Shown: one piece after another, positions 43,855 through 47,931 of the stretch
Layout: every line of letters starts with the position of its first letter
Position numbering within the stretch: the stretch's first letter is position 1
Source: Candidatus Gastranaerophilales bacterium
GTDB lineage: Bacteria > Cyanobacteriota > Vampirovibrionia > Gastranaerophilales > Gastranaerophilaceae
Direction: 5' to 3'
NCBI GenBank assembly: GCA_944324905.1
Contig: CALUYB010000003.1
Location: forward strand, 62,001 to 126,000
Length of the DNA stretch: 64,000 nt
The notes under the pieces: model-generated
Seen by the model: only the letters and a program-made list of their open reading frames with translations
The model's database searches: none
What the model was told of the DNA's origin: nothing
Made by a program: the position numbers and the translations under genes

Positions 43855-44640
43855 CTACAAAATAAATTTTTCCCAAAATTCAGGATTATATTTCAAGTAT
43901 CCATGGCAGCCAAAAGGTAACTTGTACCCATTCATTTTATACAAAATTTCAGGATGAACTTCAAATGAAAATTTCATTGCAATATTTGGTGGAGCACATT
44001 TAAACTCTTTCATAAACTTTTTTGAATATTTTACTATTGCATAATCCTCATTTAATGTAGTAGACTCCCAAAAAGGAATTTCACAAAAAAAGTGCATTAG
44101 ATAATTATAGGCAACGTTAAATATGGTTTTTAAATCAGAGGACTTTAAATAGGAGGCAGCATATTCACGAGGATTATACTTTATAGCCTGTTTATTGCTT
44201 AAAATCTTAATCATGTCATTGATATTTCTAAGCGAAAAACCACCGTTACCAGCAATTGCAGATAACTCATCGCCAACAAACCAAGGTGCGCCAATGTAAG
44301 AAAAACCCTGGTTACACCAATAATCAAGTTCATCTCTAAATACCCAAGCATCTAGCTGGTAAATTAGCATAAAATCATATTCACTAAATCGCATATAAAA
44401 TTCTGGTTTTAAAAGCAACTTTGAATATGCGCTAAGTGACTCAAAATAAGAACTATCAAAACGCGCAACGCAAAAATTGCAATTCTTGAATACTTGCTCG
44501 TAAATGCCCACATGCAAGTTGACAGGACAAATAAGCCTTATGTCTCTTTTTGCAAAAATTTTTGCACATTGGACCAAAGAATGCAGCTCATTGGCACCAG
44601 GGTTTTCTTTATAAACAGGAATAACAATTGCGCAGTTCAT
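43855..44640 (-). CDS. DUF5672 family glycosyltransferase-like protein
   Basis: The protein matches the DUF5672 group found in glycan clusters, with a GT-A-like opening CAIVIPVYKENP. Signatures are YDFMLIYQLDAWVFRDELDYWC, FSYIGAPWF and AGNGGFSLRN. The QLDAW segment probably contains the metal-binding acidic residue. I take ATG 44640 over the longer in-frame start because the fold begins there and TATTAT lies 6 nt upstream. It is a single gene, divergent from the riboswitch-like leader. The sugar donor is unknown. Confidence 0.8.
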   Translation of the reverse strand: MNCAIVIPVYKENPGANELHSLVQCAKIFAKRDIRLICPVNLHVGIYEQVFKNCNFCVARFDSSYFESLSAYSKLLLKPEFYMRFSEYDFMLIYQLDAWVFRDELDYWCNQGFSYIGAPWFVGDELSAIAGNGGFSLRNINDMIKILSNKQAIKYNPREYAASYLKSSDLKTIFNVAYNYLMHFFCEIPFWESTTLNEDYAIVKYSKKFMKEFKCAPPNIAMKFSFEVHPEILYKMNGYKLPFGCHGYLKYNPEFWEKFIL

Positions 44641-44646
44641 AAAAAT

Positions 44647-44652
44647 ATAATA
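44647..44652 (-). promoter_or_regulatory. -10 TATTAT of the DUF5672 gene
   Basis: On the minus strand TATTAT ends 6 nt before the ATG at 44640; no Shine-Dalgarno is present. Confidence 0.45.
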
Positions 44653-44666
44653 ACTTAAAAACAAAT

Positions 44667-44695
44667 TTGCAAATAATAAAAATTAGTGTTATGAT
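44667..44695 (+). promoter_or_regulatory. Promoter of the structured leader RNA
   Basis: TTGCAA (44667-44672), a 17-nt spacer and TATGAT (44690-44695) preceded by TGT give a good promoter. Transcription would start near 44702, just before the conserved core of the leader. Confidence 0.6.
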
Positions 44696-44701
44696 TACTA
44701 T

Positions 44702-44838
44702 AAAAAATAGGAAATAAGGTGAAACTCCTTAACTGGACCGCAGCCGTAAAGTCGGAAAACTTATATATCCTGTAATTGCGTGAACCGATACAGGAGGTAA
44801 AGTTCCTTGTGTTGCGGTCAATAGCACAAGGTTTTTTA
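44702..44838 (+). ncRNA. Cobalamin-riboswitch-like structured leader
   Basis: The core reads TAGGAAATAAGGTGAAACTCC, then CTGGACCGCAGCCGTAA and TCGG, which lines up with the GGGAA-GGTGnAAnTCC-CnGnCCCGCnACnGTAA core of cobalamin riboswitches. TAAGG/CCTTA (44715-44719 and 44727-44731) is the P4-like helix. GACCGCA (44736-44742) is perfectly complementary to TGCGGTC (44813-44819) in the loop of a hairpin CCTTGTG/CACAAGG, like the L5-L13 kissing loop. That hairpin holds the AAGG ribosome site and is followed by six T. I do not find the usual GCCACTG box, so the class is not certain. Confidence 0.6.
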
Positions 44839-45579
44839 ATGGTAGGATATTTATCACAAGTTAATAACAACAGAGCAAATACTTGCCCACATGGCTTGCC
44901 GCTAGGTGCATGCCCAATCTGCAACGGCATGGGTGGCGGCGGAGGTTCTACAAAAAAAATGGATGAGCCAAGGCGCCCTGGAGAAATGTCCTATCAAGAG
45001 TGCTATGCCCAGTGGAAACAAATGCAAAGAGCGCAGGCAAGGGAGCAAGCCTTGCAAGAGGCGATGTTAAAAAATGCTGAACTTGCAGCAAAATTTCAAC
45101 AACAATTAACAAATGTTGTAAATACTGCCCATAATATCCTTGATAAAATTCAGCAAAATTTACCAAAACCTGTTGCAAAAGTCTTTGAAGGGATTTCAAA
45201 TAATATCTTAAAACCATTGCTAAACATCATAAAAGATTTTCCTCAAATAATTAAAAATCTGCCAAATGCCATTGAAACAATTAAAAATGAAATAGCAAAA
45301 GTAGCAGAAAAGATTAGCGCCGTAATTGGTGAAATTCAAAACTTTATAGAAAAGAAAATTTCAGATGCAACAAAAGTTCTGAAAAAGAAATTTAGAAAGC
45401 TCTTGTCTTTCTTCGGTATAGAAGAAGAATACGAAGAAGACGAAGAACTAAAGAAAGAAATTGCAGTATTTAAAGAATTTGAAATTGAAAACTTAAAGGA
45501 ATTACTAAGAAAGCTTATTAGACCAAGAAGTCAGAAGGAAGAAGAAATTGCCGCAAGTACAGATAACCAGTATCAATAA
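44839..45579 (+). CDS. Protein with CPHG...CPIC zinc-knuckle-like motif and amphipathic helices
   Basis: I do not recognise the family. The ATG at 44839 is 7 nt after AAGG in the leader hairpin; a longer in-frame ORF would run through the RNA structure. Near the N-terminus CPHGLPLGACPICNG offers Cys, His, Cys, Cys as a possible zinc site, followed by GMGGGGGSTKK. Then come Gln/Ala-rich helices, an apolipophorin-like amphipathic stretch (about 95-185: ILKPLLNIIKDFPQIIKNLP), and an acidic end. There is no signal peptide. It is the first gene of a four-gene run and the apparent target of the riboswitch-like leader. Confidence 0.7.
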   Translation: MVGYLSQVNNNRANTCPHGLPLGACPICNGMGGGGGSTKKMDEPRRPGEMSYQECYAQWKQMQRAQAREQALQEAMLKNAELAAKFQQQLTNVVNTAHNILDKIQQNLPKPVAKVFEGISNNILKPLLNIIKDFPQIIKNLPNAIETIKNEIAKVAEKISAVIGEIQNFIEKKISDATKVLKKKFRKLLSFFGIEEEYEEDEELKKEIAVFKEFEIENLKELLRKLIRPRSQKEEEIAASTDNQYQ

Positions 45580-47062
45580 CGCCAACAGGTATTTAACAAA
45601 TCGCCAGTTAAAACAAAAAAACGCAACGCTTGAAGGCGTTGTAGTTAACAATTTTATAAAAGATTATGATGCTCAAGAATGTGCAAATTTAGATGACACT
45701 TACAATACTCTTGTAATATCTGATAATGAAAGTGAAAACGTTCAAAAATACATTGGGGCCGAAAAGGAAAAAGGTTACAATGCAAAAAAAGCCTTGTTGC
45801 CACTTGCGCTTAGTACTGGTGCAATATTTGCCTCAGGCGCGATTTTAAGTTTTCTCTTTAAAAATTCTGCAAAGAAAAATTTAACCGAGCCCTTTATTAA
45901 AAAATTGCCATCAATGGGTATGAATATAAATATTGTTGAAGAAACAGGTTTTGCAACATACATGGCGCTAAGCGATCCTAACAGGCAAAATATAATGGCA
46001 ACAATAGCGGTTTTTGCCTTTAGCGCATTGACGCTCACTGCTAAAAAATTTGTTGAAGGTGTAAAGGAAATTTGGGTTAAAAAACAAGACGCGCAAGTTC
46101 AAAAGGAATTACAAGAAAATTTAATCGATGTTGAAACAAAAGCCTTTTCAGGGAAGTTGGCAATACAAAGAAATATGTTAAGCCAACATGGAAACTATTT
46201 TAAAAAAGCACTCCAAAACCAAAATAACAAAGAAAAAGACTTGGGTGCAATATATTTTAAAAATTTTAATTTTAAAGGTAGTAACAAGACAAAAGAACAA
46301 AATAATGACAAAAAGCTAAAAGATTTAATTACACCAAATGCGCTTATAAGTGCAGGCTTACTGATTGGCAGTGTAGCCCTTGGTATATTAACTCTAAAAA
46401 ACATAAAATCAGGTGCAAAGTACCACGAGGACTTTATTAACAACTTTAAAAACGCAAAGCAAAAAATCCTTGACGAGATAATAAATAACAAAACGCAAGA
46501 TAAAACATTGCTTACTGACACTTTAATTAAAATGGGTGCAAATTCTCAAAAAGCAAAAGAATGCGCACAAAAAGCAGGTTTTGGCGAAAAAGATATAAGC
46601 GACATAGTAGAAACTGTTTCAACTAACGTTGAAAACATCTGGGGCAATGCGCCGACAGGTATGAGTACAGAAAACGGAAAAGCATTTTTCTACTGTTATT
46701 TAAACGAAACTCGCGGACACCTGTATAATTGGCTTATACACAATGATAACCCATTTTTAAAGAATTTATTTATAGCAATGGCGGCAGTAAGCTCTACAAG
46801 TTTTGTAGCGCAACAAACAGCAGAGGCTATAAAAGAAGCAACTGTTATAAAAGAAAACGCTAAAACAGAGCTTGATCTACAAAAAAGGCTTGTTGAAGTT
46901 GAAATTAAAAATTTCAAAGCGAAAAAGGAAAGCGCAATTGCGCCGCTAATAGAGGAATTTGAGCGCAAGAAGAAAGAAGGCAAACCGGCAAACGAACTAA
47001 AGGTTATGGCGGATAACATCTTGCTTGAGATTAAAAACGGCCCTCCATTTGTTTATTCATAA
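45548..47062 (+). CDS. Membrane protein with an internal duplication (504 aa)
   Basis: Unrecognised. A GAAGGAAG site supports the TTG start at 45548, giving an N-terminus MPQVQITSINNANRY; it overlaps the preceding gene by 32 nt. About four hydrophobic segments are visible (82-104, 148-164, 264-284, 403-420). Residues 146-203 and 403-460 are similar: hydrophobic helix, then KKFVEGVKEIWV versus QQTAEAIKEATV, then ELQENLIDVETKAF versus DLQKRLVEVEIKNF. The protein looks like two copies of a membrane-plus-coiled-coil unit. It may form an envelope complex with its neighbours. Confidence 0.7.
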   Translation: MPQVQITSINNANRYLTNRQLKQKNATLEGVVVNNFIKDYDAQECANLDDTYNTLVISDNESENVQKYIGAEKEKGYNAKKALLPLALSTGAIFASGAILSFLFKNSAKKNLTEPFIKKLPSMGMNINIVEETGFATYMALSDPNRQNIMATIAVFAFSALTLTAKKFVEGVKEIWVKKQDAQVQKELQENLIDVETKAFSGKLAIQRNMLSQHGNYFKKALQNQNNKEKDLGAIYFKNFNFKGSNKTKEQNNDKKLKDLITPNALISAGLLIGSVALGILTLKNIKSGAKYHEDFINNFKNAKQKILDEIINNKTQDKTLLTDTLIKMGANSQKAKECAQKAGFGEKDISDIVETVSTNVENIWGNAPTGMSTENGKAFFYCYLNETRGHLYNWLIHNDNPFLKNLFIAMAAVSSTSFVAQQTAEAIKEATVIKENAKTELDLQKRLVEVEIKNFKAKKESAIAPLIEEFERKKKEGKPANELKVMADNILLEIKNGPPFVYS

Positions 47063-47071
47063 GGAAAAATT

Positions 47072-47563
47072 ATGCAAATCAGCCCATCTGGATTATTTAA
47101 CATACAAAACATAGGTAAAAATGTGCAAAGAGCAAATTTTAAACAAAATTTTTGCACATTTGACGAAAATAAAGTGCAACGAATAATTAATGAAAAAGAG
47201 ACCGCACTGCCGTACATAGAAAATATGCTCAAAACAACAAATGATGAAAATTGCGCTATAGAGTGCCTTTACATTTTAAACAGAATGCTTGACAATAACG
47301 TCAAAGGAATTGAGAAAATGTACCCGACATTAAGCAGGTTTAATTACTCAAATTCTCCTGATATTCAGGTAATGCTATCCGGAATATATAGAAAAACCCT
47401 GATACCGGACGCATTTGGTCCACTCAATAGAATGCTGGCGCAACAAATTTATTACCCAAACAGCCCATATTTTGACGCAACAGAAGAAATTGGCGGCGCA
47501 ATTTTAGAATATATAAGAAGTTATGGTGCAAAAAATGTATACAAACAACAATCTTGCAATTAA
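47072..47563 (+). CDS. Hypothetical HEAT-like helical protein (163 aa)
   Basis: Unrecognised. The N-terminus MQISPSGLFNIQNIGKNV followed by RANFKQNF resembles that of the upstream 504-aa protein (MPQVQITSINNAN). The body is all-helical with repeat-like spacing (ALPYIENMLKTTNDENCAIE, LYILNRMLDNNVKGIEKM), suggesting one or two HEAT-like units. There is no signal peptide or membrane helix. AAGGA lies 6-7 nt before the ATG, and only 9 nt separate it from the upstream stop, so it belongs to the same operon. Confidence 0.65.
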   Translation: MQISPSGLFNIQNIGKNVQRANFKQNFCTFDENKVQRIINEKETALPYIENMLKTTNDENCAIECLYILNRMLDNNVKGIEKMYPTLSRFNYSNSPDIQVMLSGIYRKTLIPDAFGPLNRMLAQQIYYPNSPYFDATEEIGGAILEYIRSYGAKNVYKQQSCN

Positions 47564-47589: not shown

Positions 47590-47931
47590 ATGAAAATAAA
47601 AGCTTTTACAATGGCAGAAATGCTTATAACAATACTTATGATATCAATCGCTATGATTGTTATGGCGCCAGTTATGACAAAAAAAGCAAAAGAGCCCCTG
47701 CCGCAAGTCGTTGTTAAAGAAGGCCAAACGTTGCCAAAAGGCGCAATTATCCTATATTACGGAGATGATATTCCAGATGGCTGGCAAGAGTGCAGTGGAC
47801 AAAGCTTAGATGGTGAAGAATTTAAAGAACTAAAAGAAAACATCTCAAATTATTCATATTTGCCTGATTTAAACCAGCTTTTTCAAGCAACAGATACAAA
47901 TTTAAAATGGATTATAAAAGTAAAAAAATAG
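47590..47931 (+). CDS. Prepilin-like protein fused to a phage tail-collar-like domain
   Basis: The N-terminus MKIKA-FTMAEMLITILMIS is a type III/IV prepilin signal with Glu5 and a hydrophobic helix, ending in MAPVMTKKAK like the giant prepilin at 23414 (APVITKR). Residues about 45-113 resemble a tail-collar domain: LPKGAIILYYGDDIPDGWQECSGQ. In phages this domain sits on tail fibres. Here it may form the exposed tip of a minor pilin. At 113 residues it is a very small pilin. It lacks a Shine-Dalgarno but has TAGAAT 6 nt before the ATG. Confidence 0.75.
   Translation: MKIKAFTMAEMLITILMISIAMIVMAPVMTKKAKEPLPQVVVKEGQTLPKGAIILYYGDDIPDGWQECSGQSLDGEEFKELKENISNYSYLPDLNQLFQATDTNLKWIIKVKK

Follow-up and report, generated by a model that had tools for sequence, protein, structure and literature searches.

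The window, by which we mean the entire stretch of 64,000 nucleotides that was analysed, contains on its forward strand a structured leader followed by a three-gene operon (44839-47563) of unrecognised protein families, which is the predicted target of a riboswitch in the leader. The features of the leader and the operon, with the basis on which each was assigned, are the following:

44667..44695, plus strand: likely promoter, TTGCAA, a 17-nt spacer and TATGAT preceded by TG (consensus scan, 9 of 12 matches)
44698..44766, plus strand: predicted aptamer core (P3-P6) of a class-II cobalamin riboswitch (RF01689 score; covariation in 27 homologues)
44736..44742, plus strand: GACCGCA, made up of loop L5 of the aptamer and two further bases; aptamer side of the proposed kissing pair (sequence)
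44768..44795, plus strand: middle hairpin TCCTGTA...TACAGGA, its inner pairs closing the conserved heptaloop CGnnnAC (fold z -2.2; genus alignment)
44805..44831, plus strand: candidate expression hairpin resembling P13, whose 3' arm holds the ribosome site (terminator-like scan; fold -11.6 kcal/mol, z -3.4)
44813..44819, plus strand: TGCGGTC, hairpin-loop side of the proposed kissing pair (sequence)
44828..44831, plus strand: AAGG as ribosome site, 7 nt upstream of the ATG (sequence; 3' arm of the hairpin)
44832..44837, plus strand: T tract TTTTTT, at which transcription may end just ahead of the start codon (sequence)
44839..45579, plus strand: operon gene 1, 246 aa, N-terminal CPHGxPxGxCPxCxG, then helical (ATG conserved after the hairpin in homologues)
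45548..47062, plus strand: operon gene 2, 504 aa, internally duplicated, with four hydrophobic segments and EIKNGPPFVYS at the C-terminus (downstream of gene 1, 79 of 80 loci)
47072..47563, plus strand: operon gene 3, 163 aa, conserved FDPNEEIGGAIL, no known family (75 of 80 loci)

The promoter-like site would place the start of the transcript near 44702, a consensus match alone being no evidence of function. A gene for a DUF5672 protein (168.7 bits) lies at 43855-44664 on the minus strand, divergent from the leader.

The segment at 44698-44766 is matched by the model of the AdoCbl-II riboswitches (RF01689) with 39.1 bits, above the gathering score of 36.5 and with E 9e-6 over the whole window. 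The class-I model RF00174, which the first-pass annotation of this DNA had named for checking its proposal, reaches 28.1 bits at the leader, below its cut-off of 31.5, and thus does not place the element in class I. Genome-wide, each of the two models matches this leader alone, and it is the sole cobalamin riboswitch found in the window's genome. The helices of the four-way core find strong comparative support: 96.6% of the cells for 13 named pairs in 27 homologous cores are standard pairs, two-sided changes affect seven of the 13 pairs (a score reached by none of 500 shuffles), and paired cells drop to 52% or less when the structure is slid along the alignment. Among the individual helices, covariation is strong in P4, some two-sided changes occur in P5 and P3, and P6 is invariant. 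The cobalamin-riboswitch-like core recognised in the first-pass annotation is thereby upheld by the RF01689 score. Its observation that the GCCACTG box of class I is missing is also correct: the element has no class-I 3' domain, which is what is expected of a leader belonging to class II. Its further suggestion of a divergent or new class has to be abandoned, because the score over the RF01689 cut-off rules out a new class, and because RF01689 is itself a known class without the class-I 3' domain, so that the want of the class-I box does not make the RNA new. From the primary sequence and its covariation, the leader is almost certainly a cobalamin riboswitch of the known class II, with predicted binding of the corresponding ligand.

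A search with gene 1 across 84,980 species genomes recovered 270 relatives, of which 80 were analysed at the locus. These appear to derive from Gastranaerophilales or gut bacteria, with one labelled Fusobacterium that is probably a mislabelled MAG; as far as seen, the operon is confined to the order Gastranaerophilales. In every one of the 80 loci the riboswitch core lies upstream of gene 1, 73 cases being recognised by a sequence pattern and 7 by eye, and the pattern occurs elsewhere just once in 2.3 Mb of both-strand sequence. Gene 2 follows gene 1 in 79 of these loci and gene 3 is present in 75; as a rule the genes overlap or lie some tens of bases apart at most, and no other neighbour is as conserved as these two. 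Among 58 relative genomes, 48 possess gene 1 and exactly the same 48 possess gene 2; a cobalamin riboswitch, in most cases RF01689, precedes gene 1 in 47 of them. In the deeper family f3 class I predominates, and seven genomes have a class-I RF00174 element before the operon (L167-L172 and G054:C50), i.e. the riboswitch class changed and the target stayed. In one further genome (G039, locus L162), a core with an enlarged P4 loop was seen by eye upstream of gene 1, the Rfam models having missed it at the thresholds used. The sole exception among the 48 is G052 (L163), with the operon present and no cobalamin riboswitch found upstream. Other RF01689 copies in related genomes precede ribonucleotide reductases, a TonB-receptor-like gene and MetE (names from sequence motifs), all of them genes expected under B12 control. 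Most genus members have a second class-II switch before a ribonucleotide reductase gene (L032, L035, L039, L041, L044, L049, L050 and others), and the window's genome and its sister G005 have the operon copy only. No publication on B12 uptake or on riboswitches in Gastranaerophilales came up in literature searches.

Downstream of the aptamer, and absent from the first-pass annotation, the middle hairpin occupies the region before the ribosome site; all 15 genus members keep its loop CGnnnAC, and within the genus there is covariation of the inner pairs (U-G/C-G/U-A and U-A/G-C/C-G). That annotation also overlooked that the target is an operon of three genes and that this operon is conserved through the order. 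The hairpin at 44805-44831 with its T run is the sole terminator-like site on the plus strand, as against 0.2 sites expected from shuffles for both strands. In the terminator-like match, six T come after a stem of 10 pairs (4 GC), but this tract adjoins the start codon (ATG at 44839-44841). The placing of AAGG within a hairpin ending in six T, as first described, proved correct base by base. Most homologues have a ribosome-site hairpin of varying stem sequence upstream, directly before the ATG, with AAGGA, GAGGA and similar sequences in the corresponding arm. Since the homologues keep an ATG after this hairpin, and in view of the protein alignment, the start was fixed at 44839; upstream in-frame GTG or TTG starts, served by AGGAGG at about 44793, were rejected on the same conservation. 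The ribosome site is enclosed in a hairpin that is a candidate for control by the ligand, the arrangement of a translational cobalamin riboswitch.

The aptamer and this hairpin would be linked through a perfect 7-nt complement between L5 (GACCGCA) and the hairpin loop (TGCGGTC), and base-level inspection agrees with the original description of this complement. None of the 15 genus members departs from CCGCA in L5 or from TGCGG in the loop, and the TGCGG loop motif also occurs in L096 and L097, there on different stems; most other genera are without L5 complementarity at the ribosome-site hairpin. Covariation of the kissing pair, which had been proposed as its test, is uninformative within the genus, because the two sides show no variation in their five core bases.

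These observations suggest a mechanism in which bound cobalamin would fold the four-way core, and L5 would then dock into the hairpin loop and stabilise the hairpin. The stabilised hairpin would hide AAGG and may end transcription at the T tract, turning the operon off; with cobalamin absent, the hairpin would be less stable and translation would begin at ATG 44839. The overall explanation, in which a class-II cobalamin riboswitch represses the three-gene operon when B12 is plentiful, and which includes the role in acquisition considered below, appears probable, and repression is also likely to act through the hairpin at 44805-44831. When B12 is available, the switch most likely represses translation of the operon, and perhaps its transcription.

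The element resembles the AdoCbl-II riboswitches in its core sequence, in its four-way junction and in the lack of the class-I 3' domain. In the marine env8 RNAs (RF01689), the kissing-loop hairpin holds the ribosome site, as proposed here. The leader differs from AdoCbl-II representatives including env8 in the T tract that follows the hairpin next to the start codon, in the second conserved hairpin lying in between, and in its target, an unrecognised operon. In the class-I switches of E. coli btuB and Priestia megaterium metE, an L5-L13 kissing loop stabilises P13, and repression proceeds via a hidden ribosome site or termination (PMC10653944, PMC9600662). Since this role of a kissing loop is established in cobalamin riboswitches, the mechanism proposed here follows a known pattern. 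The P. megaterium metE switch has one hairpin for P13 and another for the terminator (PMC10653944), whereas the leader has both features in one.

Several alternatives to parts of this reading deserve consideration. That the leader represents a divergent class sensing another ligand is highly improbable: its RF01689 score is just 2.6 bits over the cut-off, but related genomes have the same core before B12-related genes, and family f3 replaces the core by the class-I RF00174. As for the partner of L5, the part of L13 may in truth belong to the middle hairpin. If the loop of this hairpin (44768-44795) were to take it, the L5/TGCGGTC pairing would act, if at all, as an alternative ligand-free helix, namely a 9-bp pairing of GACCGCAGC with GTTGCGGTC competing with P5 and the hairpin. 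The centroid fold includes this long 9-bp helix, and in other genera it is the loop of the middle hairpin, not the ribosome-site hairpin, that shows covariation with L5 (mean longest run 2.98 versus 2.54 shuffled, p 1e-4, 40 leaders; p 0.012 over 19 unique combinations). Within the genus, however, the CGnnnAC loop has little L5 complementarity, while CCGCA/TGCGG is invariant (15/15) and L096 and L097 retain the loop motif on different stems, and we regard both this partner and the competing 9-bp helix as rather unlikely. In most of the family, the switch might instead consist of a mutually exclusive helix, formed by the 5' strand of aptamer P3 plus GGA with the anti-ribosome-site arm, and not of a kissing loop. 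Own pairs are indeed more stable than swapped ones across 58 leaders (-8.0 versus -7.0 kcal/mol, permutation p 2e-4), and several species have perfect 9-bp matches; but nine strongly divergent leaders give p 0.15, so that relatedness may explain the signal, and the match in the window extends over just about 5-6 bp. This exclusive helix is hence a doubtful substitute for docking of L5 into the ribosome-site hairpin, which we continue to prefer.

The proteins encoded by the operon give few indications of their function. None of the three matched Pfam or NCBIfam over the cut-off, and no TonB-receptor barrel, FecCD permease or other transport domain was found among them, nor any likeness to a transporter or B12-binding protein; a Pfam search with 29 members of the gene 3 family likewise gave no match. 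The first reading of the downstream protein as an unrecognised one, and not a known B12 gene, is therefore sustained. In the gene 1 protein, C16, H18, C25, C28 and C55 are invariant, and the cysteine/histidine motif is possibly a zinc site; neither a signal peptide nor a membrane segment is obvious in this protein. The internal duplication of the gene 2 protein was recovered by profile comparison (E 2e-10). For genes 1 and 2 AlphaFold gave weak models (pLDDT 63.6 and 59.1), which matched nothing in the PDB with E below 0.001, and assignment of function from structure was given up for both on these grounds. Weak profile matches to coiled coils were disregarded.

The distribution of the operon was set beside that of B12 need and supply in the 58 genomes. 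NrdJ, the B12-dependent ribonucleotide reductase, is present in 52 of these, and full-length MetH in one, with partial domain matches only in the others. TonB receptors were found in 11 genomes, FecCD/BtuC-type permeases with strong scores in nine, CbiC, a marker of B12 synthesis, in three, CobS in four and CbiQ over the cut-off in 12. The window's genome gave no match to a TonB receptor, FecCD/BtuC, CbiC, CobS or CbiQ. All 42 genomes with NrdJ and without BtuC and CbiC possess the operon, as against six of the 16 other genomes (Fisher 1.5e-7; by genus 26/26 versus 3/11, p 4e-6). These tests ignore phylogeny and shared ancestry, but the absences are spread over several families (f1, f2, f3, f4, f6 and f8). 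The six NrdJ genomes without the operon have either CbiC (G035, G037, G049) or BtuC (G041, G043, G057), and the operon is absent in four of the six genomes without NrdJ. Operon and BtuC occur together in four genomes (G014, G026, G040, G045). Two genomes, G030 and G047, are without NrdJ, the operon, BtuC, CbiC and any RF01689 match, as if B12 use had been lost altogether.

The envelope of the lineage is of the Gram-negative kind and contains SomA/B-type porins (PMC4040986), and B12 should therefore need an outer-membrane route. The phylogenetic profile gives roughly even odds that the operon serves corrinoid acquisition, whether uptake or handling, in B12 auxotrophs without BtuB/BtuC. More tentatively, it could be an unrecognised system by which Gastranaerophilales acquire corrinoids, one that takes the place of BtuB-BtuFCD in B12-auxotrophic gut bacteria and is turned off by cobalamin riboswitches of either class; its components would be a helical protein with a CPHG motif like a zinc knuckle, a membrane protein with a duplication and about four hydrophobic segments, and a small conserved partner. 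It would share with BtuB-BtuFCD corrinoid uptake the control by riboswitches and the tie to B12 need, but the operon proteins have no homology to TonB receptors or ABC permeases, and the two distributions are largely complementary. A less favoured, though still appreciable, alternative is that the operon is repressed by B12 and has a B12-sparing or envelope function for times of B12 scarcity, its link to NrdJ stemming from lifestyle or ancestry. This would accord with the lack of a transporter-like fold, signal peptide or known domain, and with the fact that B12-independent isozymes are common cobalamin-switch targets (here ribonucleotide reductase and MetE). It is harder to reconcile with the predominant absence of the operon from genomes without NrdJ (four of six), where replacement of B12 enzymes should be free to occur, and with the presence of CbiC or BtuC in every NrdJ genome that is without the operon.

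The novelty of the locus is the target operon and not the switch, the RNA joining a known riboswitch class. A B12 switch that is conserved even through a change of class draws attention to three protein families of no known function, in genomes that need B12 for NrdJ and show neither a corrin-synthesis marker nor a known B12 receptor or permease. If the operon does perform acquisition, it would constitute a new vitamin-uptake system in common gut bacteria. Directly after the operon, at 47590-47931 of the window, lies a short pilin-like protein (weak N-terminal methylation motif) with a phage tail collar domain.
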